Shown in pieces: positions 33,201-57,155 of a DNA stretch of 64,000 nucleotides. A program made the position numbers and the translations under genes. The notes under the pieces were generated by a model. That model did not search any database. It was not told the origin of the DNA and saw only the letters and a program-made list of their open reading frames with translations. Source of the stretch: Eutreptiella sp. 'Long Island Sound 2002'. Lineage: Eukaryota; Euglenozoa; Euglenophyceae; Eutreptiales; Eutreptiaceae. Location: contig OZ038381.1 of assembly GCA_964036045.1 (NCBI GenBank), positions 156,134,352-156,198,351 on the forward strand, written 5' to 3'. The first letter of the stretch is position 1. The number at the start of each line of letters is the position of its first letter.

Positions 33201-33935
33201 AGCAGCCCATGTGCGGAACCTCTGGTAGGCCAGCTGCTACTGGCTAATGTTAGCCCGGGCAACTGTGGCCGAGTGGGCGAGCGCAGAGCGCAGCGCCAGT
33301 TCCGGCATTTCTGTATGCCGCAGGACCCTTGTGGTGAGGCGGCGCAGGCTAGAAAGTGTGCCCAACAGGACACGTTGACGTGCGCGGTGCGCCGCATAGA
33401 GAGTCACGCAAACACTATGGTGGAACCAAAACCGCGTGCGCTGAGCGGACGCGGCGAGCACCCTAGAGCAGGCGTCAACGTGTGAGCCCCATGTCACTGC
33501 CACCCTGACAGTAACCTGTCGTTGCGCCAGGATTCCCCTCACGGTTCTCCGGGACCCCCTAACCCTGACCGTCGCAAAGCGCACTGTCCATACACCACCC
33601 CAAGCGCACCTGACCCCTTTGATAGCGCCCAACAATGAACACATGAACGCTCGTAGGACAGCTTACCCAATGCAAGCGACCCCTGTCCCAAATTGCACGC
33701 TCCGGGACCCCGGCACCCTTAGGTGCGAAACCAGCCGTCACCCATGCCACACCACACTGTCCAAGTACCAACTCCAAGGCAACCAGACGCAGACCACACC
33801 CTGGGCCCTCCAAGACCTCACGACACTAGGAGAAGGCATCCATGAGGATCATGGACCTCGTCCTCTGGTGGGCCCGCCACAACACCGCTAACAAAGGGAT
33901 TTGGATACCCCCCTTACACAGGCAATCCGGCGGGT

Positions 33936-34817
33936 ATGGGGGGCGCCACAGGCGACTGCCGTGCAGGTTTCGGACTTCACTGCGGGCCATTGCACGTGAT
34001 TGGACGAGTGCGGGGTCCTCAAACCCCGTACCGGGCGGAACTCATGGGCATGTATGTAGCTCCCTGCCTGGCACGCGCTGGTGACGAGGTGGTTTTAGAC
34101 AATCAGGCGGCAGCAGATTGTGCTACAGCCGCACCTTACCATGAAGTGTGTGACGTGGACGTCCGCCAGCCATTAGCACAGGAGCTCCATAGCAAGTCAC
34201 TGATGCCCAGGTGGGTGCCAGGCCACCGGGAAGAACGCCAGGCGCGGACGCCTCAGGAAGCCCAAGACATACGGGAAAATAAACTTTCCGACTCGTTGGC
34301 TTCCATGGGAAGCGAGCTCCCATTGACACCATACACACCAGATGCGCCGCATGGCATAGGTGTGGGAGGCACGGAGGCACCCACGCCGGCAAAAAAGTGG
34401 ATCACGCCAATGCGCCCACATGCCACTCCGGAGGGGGTGCACTGGGCAACTTGGCTGCCATTAAAGGCGGAGCGCCGCAGGCTGTGGCTACAGTGGGTGT
34501 GGGGGAACGTGTGGTGGATAGGGTGTATGCCTCCATGGAAGAAGTCGGCCCAACCATGTGCTCTGTGTGGATCCACACACCAAGGAACGGCGCAGACACG
34601 GCTTGTGCAGTGTGGGGCATGGAGGATGCTCTTCCTGAACGAGTGGGCGAAAACCTGGGGACCCTGGGAGCCAATGGCCCGGCAGTGGCTCTCTACAGCC
34701 ACTTCTGACGACCTTGCCCGTGTGGCGAAGTTCCACATTCCCCTGTCTCTTGTGGAGTTAATCCCGCCCGACCATATGCCCGATTTCCGGTACAGGGTGG
34801 CGGTGCACCAATACTAG
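33936..34817 (+). pseudogene. Retroelement RNase H domain plus Cys motif
   Basis: Motifs in order are TPYRAELMGMYVAP (catalytic Glu block), EVVLDNQAAADCA (catalytic Asp block), MPRWVPGHREER (W-V-P-G-H block) and ENKLSDSLASMGSE (final N-x-x-x-D-x-L-A block). This is a type I RNase H of the kind carried by LINEs and related retroelements. Downstream, PCALCGSTHQGTAQTRLVQC gives a C-x2-C-x4-H-x7-C cluster like the post-RT zinc motif of LINE-B. No RT lies upstream in the window, so the element is truncated. The 294-codon frame itself is uninterrupted. Confidence 0.75.
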
Positions 34818-44411: not shown

Positions 44412-44825
44412 GTTCCTCCAAGGCGCTCATCGTGACTTCAATCCGCTCGTACGCGACCACTTGTGCGTGCTCCCTATCCGCCACTCCTTAGCGTTCCTCC
44501 AAAGCTCTCATCGCCAAACTTGTGCACTCGTTCGTCGCCACTTGTTCACGCTCTGTGTTTGCCACTCCCTCGCGTTCCTCCAACGCACTCATAGCCACTA
44601 CAGTTCGCTTGTTTGTTGCCATCTGTGCGTGCCTCCGGCTCACCACTCCTTCGCGTTCCTCCAAGGCGCCAAATCGCCACTTCAGATCGATTGGTCATCG
44701 CCACTAGTGCTTGTTCATTGTTCGCCATTCACCAAACCTTCGCGTTCGTCCAAGGCGCTCATCGCCACCTCTGCGCGCTCATTGGCCACCGCAGCAGTGG
44801 CATGTGCATTGTGACAGTCCATGAC
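44412..44825 (-). repeat. 81 bp minisatellite, 27-codon units
   Basis: The marker GTTCCTCCAA recurs at 44,412, 44,493, 44,574 and 44,655, exactly 81 bp apart, then at 44,744 (89 bp, as GTTCGTCCAA). The unit is 27 codons. On the - strand it reads as Glu/Ala/Val-rich helical text (for example ALEEQERVANSERAQVATHE), which suggests coiled coil. The + strand frame is Cys/His/Leu-rich and less protein-like. A repeat-containing - strand coding region is possible but not proved. Confidence 0.8.
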
Positions 44826-45190: not shown

Positions 45191-45538
45191 CTATGTTTTA
45201 GGGAGGCATTTTGGCAACACCCGAATCCGCTGGCGCTGCTCCACATCGGGCACGCCGCAGTTTAGGTGCTCCTCAAGAAAGCGCCTCCATTTACGGTTGC
45301 CTTTGTCGCTGCGATAAGTATCATGCAAGCCATAGGAAAGGCATCGGACGGTTGGCGTTGTATAGGTACGAAATGGATTTGTACACGTAAAATCAACACA
45401 TATAGGAGGGGCATAACAAGCGCGGCTGATTCTGGCACTCCTAGATCTTGCCGTGTTTCTTGCCATGACAAGAGCTGCGGTCCGTGCAGCATGCACGGCT
45501 CCGCGCTATGCTAGAAAGGCCCCCACCACACCTAGCAC
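45191..45538 (-). pseudogene. 3' part of the ORF interrupted by the transposon
   Basis: Removing the 45539-52396 element and one TAGCAC copy joins 52403 to 45538 on the - strand. The upstream frame then runs GVVGAFLA to a TAG within about 8 codons, which may be its true end. A further - frame (45191-45496) ends YRSDKGNRKWRRFLEEHLNC and may be another exon or a relic. Confidence 0.45.
45533..45538. repeat. Left target-site duplication of the 6.86 kb transposon
   Basis: TAGCAC, repeated at 52397-52402. Confidence 0.75.
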
Positions 45539-45640
45539 TTAGCCCACGCAAACTGCACCCCCTTTTGGAAGAGAAGGACCTAAAAAATGACCGCCCGAAA
45601 AACTATTTTTTTTGGACATTTGCAGCACACATGACCCAGA
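45539..45640 (+). repeat. Left terminal inverted repeat
   Basis: The outer 22 bp are identical to the right end; an A/T-rich AAACTATTTTTTTTGGACAT block further in matches AAACTATTTTTTTGGATGT at the other end. Confidence 0.8.
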
Positions 45641-45880
45641 TACCACCGAAAAAATACAATTTTACCCAATTTGCTGCTTTTTTCCACTTTTTGTTTATCG
45701 AAATAAACTATTATTTTGGCTGATTTGAAGGGTGTGTTTTACCAATCTTGTCGTTTTTGTATTTCAAAACCCAACTGGTGCGTGCCTGTTCGGGAGCTCA
45801 TTTTCAAAAATGACATTCTGCGGGTCTCCAGTTGCACCTATGTTTGTCCTGCGAAATAAATTGCTTTTTTATGTCCCTGA

Positions 45881-45900
45881 GTGCGCGAGGCCTCGCGCAC
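45881..45900. promoter_or_regulatory. 20 bp palindrome copy 1 (downstream of gene A)
   Basis: GTGCGCGAGGCCTCGCGCAC, extended by TGA/TCA to a 26 bp perfect palindrome; the leftmost copy, 342 bp from the element end. Confidence 0.85.
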
Positions 45901-46039
45901 TCAAGGTCATGGAAACAATTGTGTACAGAAGGCAACAAAAACAGGACAGGAAGTGCACAACATACAGACGCTGAAATAAAAGCTCGGCAAAAATGTACCA
46001 GCCCTTAAGGGCATATAATTGCATTCGCGTCGAAGGCGA

Positions 46040-46059
46040 GTGCGCGAGGCCTCGCGCAC
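46040..46059. promoter_or_regulatory. 20 bp palindrome copy 2 (downstream of gene A)
   Basis: Perfect copy, 44 bases beyond the gene A stop codon. Confidence 0.85.
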
Positions 46060-46102
46060 ACATGACTGCAAAAAGAGGCGAAACACTTGGGTTAATGGTG
46101 AC

Positions 46103-49054
46103 TTATTTCTTCTTCGGTCCAGCAACCTTAGCCAACCTGGAACCCAGGCTTCTTGCCACCGCACTTGTCCCACTTGGAGAGGCAACGGAACCACGAGACG
46201 GCTGGGCACCAGAACGCGAGGGCGGCTTGAACTCTGCACTAGCGGTGGCGGCAGTCTTCGCTTTCTTCTTCGGCTGTTCCTTGCCAGATTCGGGGCTTGC
46301 ATCGAAGTGAGCGGCGGGTGCCCGCTTGCGCTTCTGCTGGGTCTCCAGTACTTGCTCCATATCCTCTTCTTCCTCCTCCTCGTCGGCATCGTCGTCGTCT
46401 GATTCCGCGGGCTTGTCCGATTCCTTCTCTTTTCCTTTTGCCTGCTTCTTGCCACTCGAGGGGGTTCCCTTTCCGGCTGCAATACCCTGAGTTGGTACAA
46501 CTTTGGCAGTCTTCTTCACCTTGGCTTGCATTGGCAAGGTAGGTGCAGGCGCAACAGGCTCAGTGTCGTCAGCGGGGGCCTCAGTCACGACATCTTCCCG
46601 GACGGCCTCTGCAGCATGCACCTGCTGGTGCCCTTCGTGCCCTCGGTTGCTGTCCAAAACCCACAGTGGAATGCCATGCTGAAGCCACTCTTCTTGAGTA
46701 TCCCAAGTTGCAGCTGTTGCTCCCTGCTCCGTCTGATCATCCTCCAACATGTACCGCATGATGATTGCATGCTGCAGAGCACCTCCAACGGCATTCCCAA
46801 GGTCTTTTTGCTTGATCGTTGACACAGCCAGAAACGCCACTTTAGTACGGAGGTCGGACATCGCAATTTTGCGGCCATGGCAGGCGTGTCGTCCACAACA
46901 ACCACTGCATCGGAATACCCACTGCCTAAAAGATATTTGTCCAGGTACCACAGCACGTGAATCAGAGGCATGAAACCACCAAGGTTCTTGTTCTGCATCT
47001 CTTCGAAATGTCTGGCGGAATACGACACATAGTTCGGCAACTGTAAATGTGATGTATAAAGACGAATAACGGAGGCACCAGTGCGCGAGGCCTCGCGCAC
47101 ACAACGGCATCGTAACAGGCGAAAGAAGCAGATATACCTGCTTATCCCAGCGACTCGTTGTTCCGATCCACATACAGTGCTCGTCGAACTGATACGTACT
47201 GCTGGTCACGGGACCCGATAACCAAGAGTATACCGGCAACCGAACATGGTAGAATGGCACTGTGGTTGGATCTTTCTCCTTCTCCATACGCCAGAGCCTC
47301 TGTATGTCGCGGCCAATACGCTGCACAACATCAGTCTCGCCATAGAAAATGACGTCTTTCCCCAGCATCATCACATCGAACAGCCACTCCGGAACAAATC
47401 CTGCAGTGTCATATTCAACGAAAAGGTCAGCGTTGATGACCCACAACGGGTACTGCAGATCCCGGAAACGAGCTGGCGGTGTCTCTTCAATATCCTCAAT
47501 ACGGCAGGCCGTCAAAGAGAATTTGCTCCCTTGCTCGTCCTGCTTGGAGACATTGATCACATCGCCAGTTGTCAGCTGTGTCTGTGACGGTGCCGATGAC
47601 GGTGCCCCAGTCTTCCTTTGCAGTTGTTTCCGCACGGCCAGCGTCTGTGGTAATGGAGGTGCGCCCTTGTCCCCAGTCCGCCACAGAGGTGCATTGGTCA
47701 ACGTCTTCCATTTTGGCCACGGCGACCGATACTTCGTACTTGTTGCGTCCGGCTAGTAACCCCAATTTCCCGGGCCAATCTTCAGTTGCGTCGTGCCCAG
47801 TGCTGCGACTTCTGCTCGGATCTTCGCATCGGCAGCTGTACGGATGCGAAAGCGGTGGTTGAGTGCGCGAGCCCTCGCGCACTGAAGCCGCGACACTGAC
47901 GCATACCTGCGGTCTGGTTGACATACTGCTTATTGTCCGGACGGTCAAGATGGAACATAACCCATTGTTCCGTAATCTGCGCGTCAATGTAGTTCTGGGT
48001 GGTGCGTACGGTCGAGTCCTTCAGGTTCATGTGCGCACACACTTTCTGCAATAAGCTCGGTAGATGCAGCCCCTCCAGCTTCTTGAAGGCATTCCTTGTA
48101 ACTTCCTCTTTCCTGCTCTTAGTCTCGAGGTTCTTCATGCCAGTAACCGCCTCACGACCGCAGTAATACGCCAGGGAGAAGATGTCCCTCCAGTTCTTGA
48201 ATGTCGATTCCTGCGAGGGAAAACAATGACATGGAGTGCGCGAGGCCTCGCGCACTGTAACCGTGCGATACACGAATACATACTGTGTGTCCTGCTTCCT
48301 CCAAAGTCTCGGGTGCAAGAAACGCAGAGTTGACGGCAGCCTGGACAACAGCAATCTTGAACCGCTCGAAATCCTGTGGCTCTTTTTCCCGCTTCTGGTC
48401 CTCAATGTACAACAACATGTTGTCCAGCGCCTCGGACAGCGGAATCCACGTCACAGACTGGCTGCCAGCTTGTTGCAATCCTGCAACCTTGGCCCGGATC
48501 CTCCAAGGTGTTTCGTATTTCACAATGTCAACGTAGCAAAACTTACGCCAGTCCTCCGATTCTTTGCCTTCTACGAGACGCAGTTCCTGAATCTTTCTGC
48601 ATGTTTCTGTGCCATGTTGACCATTCAGAACGTAAAGTGAGCCATCTGCAAAGCAAATCACGTACCGAAGCAAAGAGAAGAAACGTCGTCAATCGAACGC
48701 GAAGCGAGTCATACCACTATCCTCCCACGCCGTTACGCGCAACGGTCCAGCTGGTGGCAGTGCTTGGCATCCCGTCACTTTCCTGGCAACGTCGTCATAG
48801 TTGATGGATCGGATCTGTCCGCGCTCCTTGGTCTTGTCAATTCTCAAATCAGCAATCTTTACCTTCACGGCTTTACGATTCTCCTGCCGCAGCCACTGTT
48901 GCACGTCGTCTCTGAGCTTCATCTCCGGTATTGGCTTCTTCTCACCCTTCTTTTTTCGTCCTTTCTTCGGCGTGTCCCCTTGGTCGGTCCCTCGTGACGA
49001 CTCCATGGCCTCTGCGTCTGGTGCTGGACGTTCTGGCGACCCTGGTTCACTCAT
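46103..49054 (-). CDS. Transposon gene A: ParB/Srx-like (NGQH) N-terminus, multi-exon
   Basis: ATG at 49054 (MSEPGSPERPAPDA). Exons are 49054-48715, 48645-48284, 48210-47907, 47835-47138 and 47040-46103; introns of 69, 73, 71 and 97 nt are all GT-AG, and the first three junctions keep phase 1, 0, 1. Residues about 45-140 carry VKIADLRIDK, PLRVTAWEDS and DGSLYVLNGQHGTE, matching the P-L-x-V and G-x-Y-x-x-x-x-G-Q-H blocks of ParB/sulfiredoxin-fold domains. The middle has VVVVDDTPAMAA and VPEWLFDVMMLGKDVIFYGE. The C-terminus is Lys/Ala-rich with an acidic run (DDDDADEEEEEEDM), as in nuclear or DNA-binding tails. One-base A-run slips at 46867-46870 and 47766-47768, and a possible 58 nt intron near 47.65-47.70 kb, break the frame as written. 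The role is unknown; a DNA-binding or nuclease role in transposition is inferred. Confidence 0.6.
47081..47100. promoter_or_regulatory. 20 bp palindrome copy 3 (gene A intron 47137-47041)
   Basis: Perfect copy in the middle of a 97 nt intron bounded by GTATAT and TTTACAG. Confidence 0.85.
47863..47882. promoter_or_regulatory. 20 bp palindrome copy 4 (gene A intron 47906-47836)
   Basis: Variant copy with one central base changed (arms of 9 bp around CC). It lies in a 71 nt intron bounded by GTATGC and GTACAG. Confidence 0.85.
48236..48255. promoter_or_regulatory. 20 bp palindrome copy 5 (gene A intron 48283-48211)
   Basis: Perfect copy, 22 bp with the flanking A/T, in a 73 nt intron bounded by GTATGT and CTCGCAG. 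Confidence 0.85.
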
Positions 49055-49214
49055 GATGCCAAAAAATACCTAAAAAGGACAAATGGCATGACATGAAACA
49101 CGGTCATTTGAACTCCGAAATGAGTCGAAACGGTATTTTGCAGGTCTTTTTCGCAAATCTGTTCCACAACCGTCTTTGTGGTGACTAATTCCACGGGACT
49201 TAGCGAACTACTCA

Positions 49215-49234
49215 GTGCGCGAGGCCTCGCGCAC
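49215..49234. promoter_or_regulatory. 20 bp palindrome copy 6 (between genes A and B)
   Basis: Perfect copy 161 bp upstream of the gene A start codon. Confidence 0.85.
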
Positions 49235-49271
49235 TCACATCGCATTACATACCTGCTTTTCGTAACGTTTA

Positions 49272-49291
49272 GTGCGCGAGGCCTCGCGCAC
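49272..49291. promoter_or_regulatory. 20 bp palindrome copy 7 (between genes A and B)
   Basis: Perfect copy 57 bp from copy 6 and 13 bp beyond the gene B stop codon. Confidence 0.85.
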
Positions 49292-49303
49292 TGCGGGCGT
49301 CAG

Positions 49304-51299
49304 TTACCGCAACCGTTGCCGCACGTTGCGTGTTGCTGTTTCCTGTCTGTCGGCATCCATGTCTGTTCTCCGCCCCACAACAGCATCCAGTTTCCGTTTT
49401 AGTTGGTTGGTGGGACTTGTTTTTTGGTCGATGAGGGCATCTAGTACGCTGTGACCAAGTAGCCGGTAGTGGTCGTAACCAAGGGGTTGTGTAGGTGAGG
49501 GCGGAAATCTCGGTAACCTCCGCGGCCACGAAGTTGCAACGGTGCTGACTCCGTCCGACTCCCATTCCACATAGGCCATGCAAATCCGGTCTGTCGCCAA
49601 AAATCTTGTCAGTCGTTGTCGCATCCTGTGTACCAGGTTCTTGGGAACGTTTTGTACCCCCACGTGTTTGCCACCAGGACCAACCTTTAGTAACAAGTAA
49701 TGGTTTTCCACCTCCTCAACAGTAACAGAACCCGTGTATCTCGCCTTGGCCCGCACCAACTTGCTCAGCATCCCTTCTCCAAACTCCTCTGAGTGTGCCT
49801 GACCGGGCAGGTCTTGGTGCCACTTGCTGTTGTACAACAATGTGCACATGATTGTGCGTTCGTACTTCAGTACGGTGTCACACGGTCCTCGACGCAGCCT
49901 CCTCAACAGACACAAACTCAACTGCAACACCTCCTGAGCTCGTGACCCTGTACCGTTGTTTTCCCCTGACCAGTTGCATTCCCGTACCACGTGGCCCAAG
50001 TACAACAACAACGGGCACCATTCCGACAACAAATGCAGAACTGCGTTTGCCACTGCTGCCCTGTTGGCATGCGCAGTGTCACGACCACTGATCGCGGTTG
50101 CAGCTTGTGCCTTGCGCCGATACGGGCGTAGTATTCGGGGTGTGGCAAGCATCATCGCAGCAATAGTTTTTTCCATAACTATCAGTTTGGGGTATGATAG
50201 TATGGTGGAACCAGGTCGTAGCAGACCTTTCCGTAGGTAGGTTAGAATAGGCCAGATCACCCGAAAAGTTTGAGTAACAACGAACTTGTAGGCATGCCAG
50301 ACACCGTAAACTACAGGCACGTAACGCAGGTACGAACACATGTTCCATCGTTGGTTCTTGGCACCGTACAACAACTTTAGTATCCTGTAGTGTATGTTTT
50401 CGTCAACCAACAGCGGTAGAACTCTGTTTGTGTGTTGTGCTGTGTCCTTTGCAAAGTGTAACAAGTTTAACACACCAACGCCACCAGTTACCTTTTCTTT
50501 TGACAGGGCAAACGGGCGCCACACCGGTGCCTGCACAGTCCTTGCATCCCTCCTCACATCCAACGGTGCTCTCACGTTTCCGGTGTCTGGTACACACCCG
50601 TCTGCATACCCCATGTCGCGCAAAGTCTGGGGGATTCTCCTTTCACGCTGTTGCAGAGCCCTTGCGACTGTCGTTATCCGTGCTGCCAGGTCCTCAATGG
50701 CTGGATGTCCTGCCCAATACGTGGGCCTCTGTTTCAGTTGAAGTACTGCCATTGCAGTACAGTTTTGTGACCGGTCACTTTCGTCCGGGTGTGTCGTGTA
50801 TTGTGCCCGGTACCAGTTGTCTATCCACAGCACGCAACACGAAGAAAGCACCAGTGACCACGTTGCTTTAAGTGCTGCTGCTGCCTGTTCGTCCACTGTA
50901 TTTGCGGCAGCGTCTGCTTGCCCAAGTCGTACTTTTGTTCGTCTTTCTGTTTGCGCTAGGTACCCTGTTTTGTTTCCCGGTTTTTTCCTGTTTGGTACTG
51001 CCCGTTGACGCATCAACAGGTACAGGTTCCAGCTCCTGTCGCAAAATGCGCACCCAGCGCTTGTCCTCCTGCCTTTTAGCTGCTGGTAAACTGTGGCACG
51101 TTCTTTTGTTGAACCTGAGTCGCTGTGGAAATGTTAAAACCAGTTGAGCCGCCAGGTCGTTTCGTTTGAGTCCTTTCCACAGGTCGTCTGCTGTTTGGTA
51201 TGCCGGTTCTGCCGCGCATGCCTCTCGTAGTGCTGCTGCTCCTTTGCTTACTTCTGCTATCATTCGATGCGTTACGGATTTTCTGGCTCGAAGTGGCAT
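49304..51299 (-). CDS. Transposon gene B: uncharacterised protein, possible transposase
   Basis: A frame from ATG 51299 (MPLRARKSVTHRMIAEVSKG) joins the long frame 51016-49304 if a T6 run at 50981-50986 is one base too long; together about 665 residues. The N-terminal part is basic (for example NRKKPGNKTGYLAQTERRTK). The core has VLPLLVDENIHYRILKLLYG, VVYGVWHAYKFVVTQTF and LSYPKLIVMEKTIAAMMLAT, with spaced Asp, His, Trp and Tyr-Lys residues suggestive of a catalytic domain. A basic tail (RNVRQRLR) ends it. Being the only other gene in a TIR element with no known DDE protein, it is the best transposase candidate. It has no visible intron, and lies upstream of gene A with a 249 bp gap that holds two palindromes. 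The family is unknown to me. Confidence 0.55.
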
Positions 51300-51769
51300 T
51301 TTGCGTCTTTCTCTGTGGAATTAGATTTGCGCACATATTTTGGTTATCGTTTCGCACAGCGATCTTTAAAAAAAGTGTGTTTGAAAACATCTGGCCTTTT
51401 CCTGTCGTCATTTGTGGTGCGCGTGTTGCCGCCGCAAATTGTATTTGGTGTCTGCGTGCGCTCCGTTCCCAGTGACCGAAAACCGTTTTCGCAACCACAA
51501 TTCCCTATTCTGTTTCCCTCTTTAAACCCAGTTGGAAAAAAAAACCATATCTATCGGGCAGCGAAGGCTACGGCCGCTATTAGAACCGGACACGTCTGCC
51601 ATTGAGTGGCTATTGGAAAAAAGCAAATCATTCCCCTGATCCCCTGAAAATTATGACGAAGGTTACCGATGTATAATTGACTGTCACAGGTGGTAGCCGT
51701 GAAAGGGAATGTAAATACCGGCGTGCCTGACCTGACCTGCCTGCTTTTTCATTTTCTTCCGTCGTTTAA

Positions 51770-51789
51770 GTGCGCGAGGCCTCGCGCAC
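51770..51789. promoter_or_regulatory. 20 bp palindrome copy 8 (upstream of gene B)
   Basis: Perfect copy in the 1.1 kb segment between gene B and the right end. Confidence 0.85.
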
Positions 51790-51954
51790 TGATTGTTTCC
51801 TTGGGACAATATTCTATACCTCGTTATATGTGACCAACATGGTGTCTACACACACATACACCGGAAAAATCAAATGTGTTTGTCCGTCTGGTACTGTACC
51901 TGCGATTGTACGCGTTGTTTACATCCTGCAAATTCAATACATAACGTGACCCGA

Positions 51955-51974
51955 GTGCGCGAGGCCTCGCGCAC
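51955..51974. promoter_or_regulatory. 20 bp palindrome copy 9 (upstream of gene B)
   Basis: Perfect copy, 24 bp with flanking GA/TC, 185 bp from copy 8. Confidence 0.85.
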
Positions 51975-52179
51975 TCCGGATGCCTAAATTTGTATTTTAT
52001 TTTCACTTTACAGTACATGTGTTTCCCCTAACATGGGAAGTCCGACAGTCATACACTTCCAATGCTCCTTGGGCAACACTATCCTACTTTTAATACCATG
52101 TGGGAGCTGCGTATTTCCGCCAACGCCAGTCCTTACGGGTTTTTAGGTTTCGTGATAAACTCCACTTTGAATATCTTGA

Positions 52180-52199
52180 GTGCGCGAGGCCTTGCGCAC
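52180..52199. promoter_or_regulatory. 20 bp palindrome copy 10 (near the right end)
   Basis: One mismatch (CTTGCG for CTCGCG). Like copy 1, it is flanked by TGA/TCA; 197 bp from the right end of the element. Confidence 0.85.
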
Positions 52200-52294
52200 T
52201 CAGAACGCCAGAGAAATGTAAAAAACGTCACATTGAGGAACACAGAGTTGCGTAACACTAAAAAAGCAATTTATTTCACTACGTCTAAAATCAC

Positions 52295-52396
52295 GTTCAT
52301 CAAACATCCAAAAAAATAGTTTGTTTGCCCTGTTGCGAACCGGTCCTTTTCTGCGCGTTCGGCACGCAAAACAGGGTGCAGTTTGCGTGGGCTAAA
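52295..52396 (-). repeat. Right terminal inverted repeat
   Basis: Inverted copy of the left terminal repeat; divergent in the middle, identical in the outer 22 bp apart from one extra terminal base. Confidence 0.8.
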
Positions 52397-52402
52397 TAGC
52401 AC
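52397..52402. repeat. Right target-site duplication of the 6.86 kb transposon
   Basis: TAGCAC, matching 45533-45538. Confidence 0.75.
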
Positions 52403-54285: not shown

Positions 54286-57152
54286 TCATTCATCGATGAG
54301 TCCATCCATGTCATCCACTGGCTGCGAGCAACTGGGCTGGGAGCTGCTTGGTGGTGCCGCAGAACGGGTGACACGGTCCGTGTCCGGCACAAAGGCATCC
54401 CATTCTTCCAATAATGGCAACGCTTGCTGCGTAGCAAGGTCCCGCAGTTCCCGCCGATTGCTGTTACCTGCCACCTTCACACCAAGCACATCGAGACAAT
54501 TCAACGGCGCCCCCTTTGACCAATCACGCAGCCTGCCATTCTGCGCGGCCATCACCAATTTCGCCTGCATCCTAGCCACACCACGCCCCTTATTTGGCTT
54601 CCGTGGTGTGGCCAATTCGTCTGCACTATTGTTCTCCCCCTCATCACAGACATCATCTACAACATTCACCACCACGTTCCCACAAGGACGTGGACTTGCG
54701 CAAAAGCATGCATGGCACACCAGACATGTATTGCACCAGATGCGAACCTCCTTCTTGCATGTGGCACACTCCATACCTCTGTGAAAAGTGATGAAGTCAT
54801 GGTTGCCAGCATGCGAGTTAGGGGTCCCATCGGGTGCAACAATGCTGACCACATCTGCCTGGTGCCGTTTTGTACCCTTTCCTGAGGGTGCCGTTGAGCT
54901 CAGTGGTGTACCCGGCCCTCCAAAGAAGGGCAAGCTGTCACCATCATCAGCCACTGCTTCATTACCTTGCAAACATTGAAGTATTGCAGCCTCCACAGAT
55001 TCTCTGTCCCCTACCTTCTTTGAAACCCTCTGTCTTGGGCGCAGATCGAAGCGTGCATGGGCAGCCAGGTGGCAGCCACTCCAACGCCTTGTCCCTTTGC
55101 CCATTGCTGTAAAGGGGGCAAGTTGGGATGCAATGCCATGCACATGCTCAGGACATGTGTCTCCACAGTGTCATGCATACTACTGCAGAACCTCCCACGC
55201 AAAGAGATGGCACGCTCTACTGCCGCTTCAGCGGGGCAATATGTTCGCAATAATGCGAGAACGCGCCACACATTCACCCACTGTGCATGTGCCCTTTCAG
55301 GTGCCAATGCCTCCCACATCTTGGACATTTGCACAGTTGCAAAGTGCTGCACCATGTGCTCCTTAAGGCCTTCCCACTCTACCAAGGCACGGTCACAGTT
55401 CACATGTGCTGCGCCCAACTCTTCTTGGTGTGAAGTCATGCACTGACACAACTGCTCCACCCCATATGCAGCACGCTCATTGACCGGGAGGGCAACGAAA
55501 CGGCCATGGTCCAACAATACTGCGCACTCTAACACCCCCCTGGGGTCAATGGTTGCCTGCCCCTCCTTGATGCCTGCAAGCAACACATCAGTCACTGCAC
55601 GCGCCTGAACGCATGGAAAAGGAGGGGTTGTTGCACACTTTTGCCCACCTGAATCAAACTGGACCAACTGCACACCACGCCACGCACCGGTCACAGTCTG
55701 CTCCTTGAATTGCAACCACCCTGGACCCTCCTCGCGAGCCACCCTCTGCAACCGGGCTTCTAGCATACCTGTTGCAGTGGCTAAGTGTGCACCAGTGGGC
55801 GCACGTAGTTGTGCCACACTGTTAAAACACCGCATGCCATGCAGGATGTCCCCATAAACCACCCCCCATGCAAGCAAACGGGCATCATGGCAGTCCTCCC
55901 ACACATCCTCCTCCTTGGTAGAATGCGCAACCTTGGAATCCAAGTGTCGTGCCACCCAAGGGACATTGGCCAAAAAAGCAGTGTTGCGCCGTGCATGCAC
56001 CTGTGACCACCTGATGCGATGACTTGTGGGGATGAGCTGCAAGCCACTACGTTTATCCTGCACATGCTTTTGCACACACTTTTGCAACTCCTTCCACTGC
56101 CGTGCCCCATTGTACAAGCCTCGTTGCCGATTGACGGCCGCCAAGTAATCAACATGGGTTGGGCCAGCAGCCTCCAATGCAAGACCCAACTTGCGCTGCA
56201 ACACATGGCACGGCTCACCCAAGGGTGTCATCAACACTAACCACTTCCCAATCAAGGCAAACAAATTGCTCTCAATGATAGAGACATCAACGACCTGCCG
56301 CGCACTGACACCTCGCACACCAAGGTTAGAAGCCCCGTCCACTGCAAAGGTCACTACCCTCTTTGCCCACCAATCACGGTCAGGAATCCAGGACATCAGG
56401 ACGCATTCTAGATGCGTTGCAACCTCATGCGCATCACCACAGGCCACATCCACCACACCAAGGAACACCTCACACATGCCCCAAGGGCCAGTCCCCGGCA
56501 AAATAAGCAGAATGGCGTACTCATTGATGCGATGCCTCTGCCTATCCGAGCCGTCAAGCAACACTGCAATGAACGTTGCCAGGAATAGGGCGTGCGTTAC
56601 CTCATCCTGCATGGCATTATGCATTGCTGCAATAGCCTTCTCAACTATCCACCGCCGTGATGCATGGTGCCCAGGGGCGGATGTCAGAGAACAGTGCAGA
56701 AGGATGCGCTCACTTATAGCACGGATGGAAGTGCACATGCGTAACCCTATATACACCTCAACCAACCGTGACAGAATGGCGGCCTCAACATCCGACACTG
56801 CCACACCGATGTCCATGGCTTCCCCCCTGATGAACACAACGTTCCCTCCCACCACGTCAGCTGTGGCAGCAGCAGTGGGGCACAATGCGCGATATCGCTC
56901 TGCACAATGCAGCTTGAAACTGTCCTCAGCCAGTCGGTGGTGGTGCCCTGGCCTATGCAGATTCTTTCGCGTTGCTGTTGTGCCACGTGATAACCCCAAG
57001 TGGCTTTCCAACACCTCCTTCCGCCACGTTTTTGGGCCAGAGGTCTTCATGCGCATCCCTACAGCATATGTTCCCAATACCAAGGCTTCACTTTTCTTAG
57101 GGGGACGCGCCACCCCAGGAATGCCACACACATTTGGCCACGCACAACACAC
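54286..57152 (-). pseudogene. hAT-like transposase with C-terminal zinc-ribbon-like region
   Basis: The frame 57152-55011 (713 codons) has a Lys/Arg-rich N-terminal third, then FIAVLLDGSDRQRHR (first catalytic Asp region), VVTFAVDGASNLGVRGVSAR (second Asp, D-G-A-S block), GEPCHVLQRKLGLAL (in the place of the H-C-x-x-H-x-x-x-L block), and near the end TYCPAEAAVERAISLRGRFC, which matches the hAT dimerisation region. After a one-base shift near 55.05 kb, frame 55143-54286 continues with MECATCKKEVRIWCNTCLVC followed by HACF, a Cys-rich zinc-binding cluster, and a Ser/Pro-rich end. The transposase would cut and join element ends. Apart from this shift the hAT frame has no stop, so decay is slight or an assembly slip. 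Neighbouring frames upstream look like parts of the same element. Confidence 0.65.
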
Positions 57153-57155
57153 ACA

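Follow-up and report, generated by a model that had tools for sequence, protein, structure and literature searches.

What kind of mobile element carries ten copies of one palindrome along its length, and what would they do for it? The question is raised by a locus of Eutreptiella sp. 'Long Island Sound 2002' within the stretch of 64,000 nucleotides that we analysed (hereafter the window; contig OZ038381.1, C4:156134352-156198351, in a genome of 2.28 Gb in 2,205 contigs). The original prediction, made from the letters of the window, described there a DNA transposon of unrecognised type, with inverted ends, two genes (here A and B) and internal palindromes. Comparison of its copies leads us to a reading that we consider probable: the element belongs to a recently active cut-and-paste family in which gene B would encode the transposase, the palindromes would form a conserved cis-acting signal, the protein of gene A would be the likeliest reader of this signal, and gene-less copies would move in trans.

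The element is a terminal-inverted-repeat DNA transposon, as shown by its dispersed copies, shared ends, target duplications of fixed length, and empty sites. It starts with CTTAGCCC and ends with GGGCTAAG, the final G being an A in the window copy, and its predicted inverted ends are confirmed, with arms of 29 nt that are 93% complementary. The terminal 20-mer TTAGCCCACGCAAACTGCAC has 818 forward and 819 reverse exact matches in the genome, against none for the reversed control, an abundance that is not due to chance. We fetched 37 stretches around the listed places of this 20-mer, all on contig C1, and found both ends in 34; L043-L045, with a single kind of end each, were left out. Together with the window copy, this gave a first-family set of 35 copies, of which 14 are short (~1.2 kb) and 21 are long or carry internal deletions. 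These copies were selected by exact ends, hence they give no independent test of whether copies with different ends exist.

Perfect 5-bp target duplications flank 33 of the 35 copies, from which we deduced the length of the duplication and the boundaries of the element. In the two exceptions, the duplication matches at four of five bases (L011) or is replaced by a 7-bp match (L017). The search with the terminal sequence thus returned the anticipated copies with inverted ends, but with duplications of 5 bp instead of 6: the TAGCAC initially reported for the window consists of the duplication TAGCA plus the first base of the element on the left and a coincidental C in the flank on the right. The 33 targets, counted on both strands, show a weak symmetric preference, C-WNNNW-G: the frequency of C is 0.62 just outside the duplication, and that of A/T is 0.74 at its first base. 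Three other insertions, L019, L032, and L023, have an empty counterpart elsewhere in the genome, where their joined flanks match uninterrupted DNA at 72/75, 73/75, and 64/75 junction bases, respectively. The window's own site lacks such a counterpart, as its joined flanks matched only themselves genome-wide (overlap TAGCAC). The case for a host gene split by the insertion is weak, because the long minus-strand frame runs only nine codons past the junction in the joined flanks.

Identity to the majority sequence exceeds 99.8% in eleven of the 21 long copies, which indicates that the family moved recently, and two copies at different places (L016 and L017) are identical at all aligned bases. The window copy, at 93.7% identity, is older and its genes are broken. 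Some copies probably moved with help from others: L026 lacks most of gene B and L027 has a central deletion through both genes, yet both are as close to the majority sequence as full copies and have proper target duplications. We infer that this movement is by cut-and-paste rather than by copying.

The palindromes (AGTGCGCGAGGCCTCGCGCACT) are the most conserved internal feature of the element. The window copy has ten, six exact 22-mers and four with one mismatch; all the matches in the window fall inside the element, three of them in introns of gene A and none in exons. In comparisons with L020, all eight diverged copies show less divergence per base in palindromes (0.014-0.050) than in other non-coding (0.079-0.188) or coding DNA (0.060-0.129). 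The same holds at CpG positions (0.013-0.056 vs 0.106-0.236). Relative to other non-coding DNA, palindromes change from ~1.8 (L009) to 5.8 (window copy) times more slowly. Exact matches to the 22-mer number 2,910 genome-wide (reversed control: 0). Of the 50 places listed, 47 are at most 7 kb inward from an exact end, as compared with 0.5% of random positions; the remaining three are spaced as in a partial copy. Each palindrome carries four CpGs, and the ratio of observed to expected CpG is 0.87-0.97 in the long copies and 0.54-0.81 in the short ones, apart from L039. Within the window, this ratio is ~0.92-0.98 in the bins of the element and 0.37-0.86 elsewhere.

The original prediction had noted the palindromes, but neither their conservation nor the fact that they recur in copies without genes and in a second family. 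What 13 of the 14 short copies have in common with the full element is limited to the ends, the palindromes, and zero to two short weak matches each, most of which involve a single A/T-rich stretch close to the right end. The majority sequence of these 13 has three palindrome sites, one of which may result from a local duplication, since two of the three have similar surroundings. The other short copy, L039, appears to have arisen by internal deletion and retains three palindromes. The presence of palindromes in these gene-less followers suggests that they are part of how the element moves.

The second family has a gene B 45% identical to that of the first and other inverted repeats (CTTAGGCGGCTCAAGTTGCATGGTC; 865+833 exact copies, control 0). 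A search with P0048, in which 67 of 8,590 candidates were scored as relatives, gave proteins located in elements of this family. Its copies L046 and L047 were fetched by gene B alone and nevertheless have inverted ends and 5-bp duplications (TCACA and ACGTA); the ends are CTTAG in both families. The palindrome of this family is TTGCGCGAGGCCTCGCGCAA; L046 has ten sites, with the 16-bp core GCGCGAGGCCTCGCGC exact in seven and with one mismatch in three; the outer bases are TT/AA at six of the ten sites, as opposed to AGT/ACT in the first family. Its gene A encodes 832 amino acids, has four introns as in the first family, and is 40% identical to it over the N-terminal part; intron 3 of gene A in L047 falls outside the intron pattern that we applied. 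Introns 1, 2, and 4 hold palindromes in the second family and introns 2, 3, and 4 in the first. Since the core is shared and these positions differ, the signal persists while its positions shift. The two families also meet at one locus, L023 (C1:107106909-107114153), where an element of the first family has landed close to the start of a gene B of the second.

Both predicted genes were found, on the minus strand, and both are multicopy rather than single-copy host genes. Gene B is open as a 672-codon frame in 9 of the 21 long copies. Gene A reads 879-881 amino acids, once four GT-AG introns are removed, in at least nine, a lower bound because a fixed pattern of introns does not fit every copy. 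Both genes are open in seven. Both genes are conserved: in eight diverged copies, the ratio of nonsynonymous to synonymous changes (dN/dS) is 0.12-0.46 for gene B and 0.27-0.58 for gene A, as estimated by a simple counting method and including time spent as pseudogenes. L023, only 1% diverged and outside this sample, has values within these ranges.

Gene B is likely the transposase of the element, judging from its predicted fold. We found 139 relatives of its protein (8,000 candidates scored), of which 120 are listed, nearly all on long contigs. A few, at 28-39% identity (P0074, P0077, P0118-P0120), come from other sources, on contigs of 2.7-6.3 kb, so the group probably reaches beyond this host. 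As originally stated, there is no recognisable transposase by sequence. When 13 gene B relatives were compared with Pfam, the only match at E ≤ 1 was PF05571 (JAMP; E 0.13); neither the P transposase nor the hAT C-terminal dimerisation domain (PF05699) matched, and NCBIfam gave chance-level rows. The lack of the hAT domain is informative because the PF05699 model works in this genome, where it scores 150 places. A phage or viral origin was discarded: gene B had no match in phage records, and none of 23 pattern matches in viral contigs was confirmed.

The AlphaFold model of gene B (P0002; alignment of 50 of the 120 listed relatives) has a mean predicted local distance difference test score (pLDDT) of 77.9 and a predicted template modelling score of 0.74. 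The model, which also contains a long helical stretch, has D149 on one strand, a second strand leading to D288, and E497 on a helix. This predicted fold corresponds to the RNase-H-like core of DDE/D transposases. In VIA-align, the model aligns best with the P element transposase (9.3; 4.5 Å over 275), followed by Hermes (8.5), Transib (7.1), and RAG1 (6.4); these four account for all of the first 12 rows, and row 13 is Prp8 at 3.6. All 13 rows of the alignment have D149, D288, and E497, and also E365. Between the second D and the E, this alignment has Y-G-V/F-W-H (GxWH), with the H present and a G where C/D is expected. We take gene B to encode a putative DDE (Asp-Asp-Glu) transposase with an inserted helical domain. 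Of the two genes that had been suggested as an unusual transposase, gene B is thus the likely one.

Gene A searches gave 67 relatives for one frame and 99 for the N-terminal frame, nearly all on long contigs, and no identified relative in Pfam, NCBIfam, PADLOC, PDB, or PHROGs. Weak rows were taken as chance: Myc_N (E 0.007) and CDC45 (E 0.014), both on an acidic stretch, and TRIP4_3rd (E 0.012), on the first exon, all below Pfam cut-offs, as well as a ribosomal protein in PDB (E 0.014) and PHROGs rows with E of 0.028 or more. Gene A contains a GQHxxE motif, which may resemble one of ParB/Srx-like (DGQHR) proteins; searches of Pfam, NCBIfam, PADLOC, and PDB gave no support for a ParB/sulfiredoxin identity beyond this motif.

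We propose that the gene B transposase would cut at the CTTAG ends and that insertion would proceed through 5-bp staggered breaks with the weak target preference described above. The ~10 palindromes along the element would be a cis-signal used by the transposition machinery. We infer that some protein binds them, and gene A appears the best candidate for this role. Gene-less copies, carrying only ends and palindromes, would be mobilised in trans.

Several observations weigh against this reading. Sequence profiles (Pfam, PDB) yield only chance-level rows and no transposase for gene B, and Foldseek gave no match for its model at E ≤ 0.001. The link in fold comes from a single aligner that re-ranked the candidates of Foldseek, and its best Z, 9.3, barely exceeds the level at which this tool advises caution. 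E497, rather than E365, was chosen as the putative catalytic residue by its position in the predicted fold. The predicted model of gene A, made with 17 of the 99 listed relatives, has a pLDDT of only 33, probably because the unspliced frame includes an intron and the alignment is shallow. The palindromes of L009 contain 17 gap positions. Similarity among palindromes could also be maintained by gene conversion between copies. In the 13 short copies, a strict pattern finds no perfect palindrome in four, one in seven, and two in two, and palindrome columns are barely more conserved than the rest (0.966-0.978 vs 0.961; 0.952 vs 0.914 at CpG). The short copies alone therefore do not prove that palindromes are needed, and this lowered our confidence. 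Such a partial loss would follow from decay after insertion, as the short copies are CpG-poor.

The same transposon might instead use the palindromes for expression or chromatin, as sites of host factors, an insulator, the seed of a CpG island, or signals of splicing or termination. Several features would suit this, such as the four CpGs per palindrome, the higher CpG ratio of long copies than of the rest of the window, the location of three palindromes in gene A introns and of the others outside genes, and their partial retention in short copies. We still find it rather unlikely, because the 1.2-kb copies, which have no known gene and are otherwise almost unrelated to the full element, retain three palindromes or their remnants. 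Furthermore, the outer bases differ between families around a constant core, which is more like the site of an element-specific binding protein than that of a host factor. It is very improbable that the palindromes are a miniature selfish repeat inserting into non-coding parts of the transposon: the change of introns between families would fit, but palindromes are conserved in place across diverged copies, and nearly all the listed places lie within exact ends, the few others being spaced like a partial copy. A bolder form of our proposal, in which a new eukaryotic DDE superfamily would use the gene A protein (perhaps a ParB/Srx-like clamp) to bind ~10 parS-like palindromes and assemble or compact the element, gene-less copies obeying too, seems to us unlikely.

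The element could also belong to a known superfamily from which it has strongly diverged: P, Transib/RAG, or hAT of the kind that makes 5-bp duplications. This is a real possibility, if not the one that we favour. The ranking of the predicted fold, led by P, Hermes, Transib, and RAG1, speaks for it, and Transib/RAG elements make 5-bp target duplications as ours does. However, Transib/RAG ends begin with CAC and not CTTAG, gene B has no Pfam match to them, and our element has a gene A, which had no match to a known family in the searches made. The P element makes 8-bp duplications and is not known to have a second gene or a palindrome array; gene B is 11% identical to its Drosophila transposase (PDB 6p5a, 6pe2) in the alignment and has no Pfam match. 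Known transposons mostly bear recognition signals near their ends. CACTA/EnSpm-type elements, which have subterminal binding motifs, resemble ours in having two genes and in that their gene-less copies keep short repeated motifs. Our element is unlike them in having a single 22-bp palindrome across its whole length, introns included, 5-bp rather than 2-3-bp duplications, and other ends. Target duplications of hAT elements are of 8 bp; families of hAT with duplications of 5 bp, as in ours, also exist (hAT5; PMC12730594). Compared with Hermes (PDB 6dww, 4d1q) and hAT5, gene B has no detected C-terminal dimerisation domain and the ends are CTTAG, not CA...TG. The C/DxxH motif described between the second D and the E in hAT, P, MuDR, Kolobok, and Dada (PMC10045372) is not found in gene B, which keeps the H but has G instead of C/D. 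Kyakuja and Zisupton make 7-8 bp duplications and Plavaka 2-3 bp, with ends CA..TG in Kyakuja and TGT..ACA or CATCA..TGATG in Plavaka (PMC12730594); with 5-bp duplications and CTTAG ends, our element fits neither Kyakuja-Dileera-Zisupton nor Plavaka.

Set against the collections searched, the element is probably a superfamily-level variant among terminal-inverted-repeat DNA transposons, and the tools used assign it to no known superfamily. The kind of transposon is known; the conserved array of internal palindromes is the new part. The suggestion that the family is undescribed agrees with the collections and papers that we searched, none of which was found to describe it; this scope did not include Repbase or subscription papers, and novelty is not proven. 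In summary, the original observation is confirmed in part and its interpretation partly supported, and as far as tested none of the findings that would have refuted it turned up. The core of the palindrome persists even though gene B has diverged to 45% identity, and it is among the few features common to gene-less and full copies. Whether transposition may rely on an array spread through the element and on a second protein devoted to it can thus be tested directly. The family is a practical test case, since recently moved copies have both genes open. Gene B would add a diverged relative, by predicted fold, to the P/hAT/Transib/RAG group, useful for tracing its history.

Table. Positions in the window of the features of the element (window copy).
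Feature	Positions	Strand	Remarks
Whole element, 6,859 bp	45538..52396	-	CTTAGCCC...GGGCTAA(G>A); both genes on minus strand
Left target site duplication TAGCA (5 bp)	45533..45537	.	comparison of copies
Right target site duplication TAGCA (5 bp)	52397..52401	.	comparison of copies
Left terminal inverted repeat CTTAGCCCACGCAAACTGCACCCCCTTTTG	45538..45567	+	inverted-repeat arm 45539-45567, first base from copy comparison
Right terminal inverted repeat	52367..52396	-	inverted-repeat arm 52367-52395, last base from copy comparison
Gene A, 5 exons and 4 introns	46103..49054	-	881 aa in open copies; ATG inferred from frame; here in-frame stop near 47753 and frameshift near 46870
Gene B, predicted transposase, no intron	49304..51299	-	~664 aa from first MPLR in open copies; frameshift here near 51030
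Palindrome 1	45880..45901	.	downstream of gene A
Palindrome 2 (one mismatch)	46039..46060	.	downstream of gene A
Palindrome 3 (one mismatch)	47080..47101	.	gene A intron 4
Palindrome 4 (one mismatch)	47862..47883	.	gene A intron 3
Palindrome 5	48235..48256	.	gene A intron 2, by comparison with L020
Palindrome 6	49214..49235	.	between genes A and B
Palindrome 7	49271..49292	.	between genes A and B
Palindrome 8	51769..51790	.	upstream of gene B
Palindrome 9	51954..51975	.	upstream of gene B
Palindrome 10 (one mismatch)	52179..52200	.	upstream of gene B

Elsewhere in the window, degenerate repeats built around TTCGCGTTC-TCCAA can be seen by eye to the left of the element (44500-44800) and may be what is left of a tandem array. 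Two long frames, at 55011-57155 (-) and 33846-34817 (+), have by eye the look of a transposase of hAT type and of the RNase H of a retroelement; neither had a Pfam match at E ≤ 0.01. RNA families and tRNAs gave none in the window at the thresholds used. One of the plastid-type rbcL frames of the genome, once translated, scored highest against 1gk8 and its variants (1017.7 bits), a Rubisco of Chlamydomonas, with other Rubiscos narrowly behind; taken alone, this would make the host probably a green alga. In the rest of the genome, uninterrupted rbcL frames occur on large contigs (C7, C2) beside the small contig C2205, possibly as a result of transfer from plastid to nucleus.

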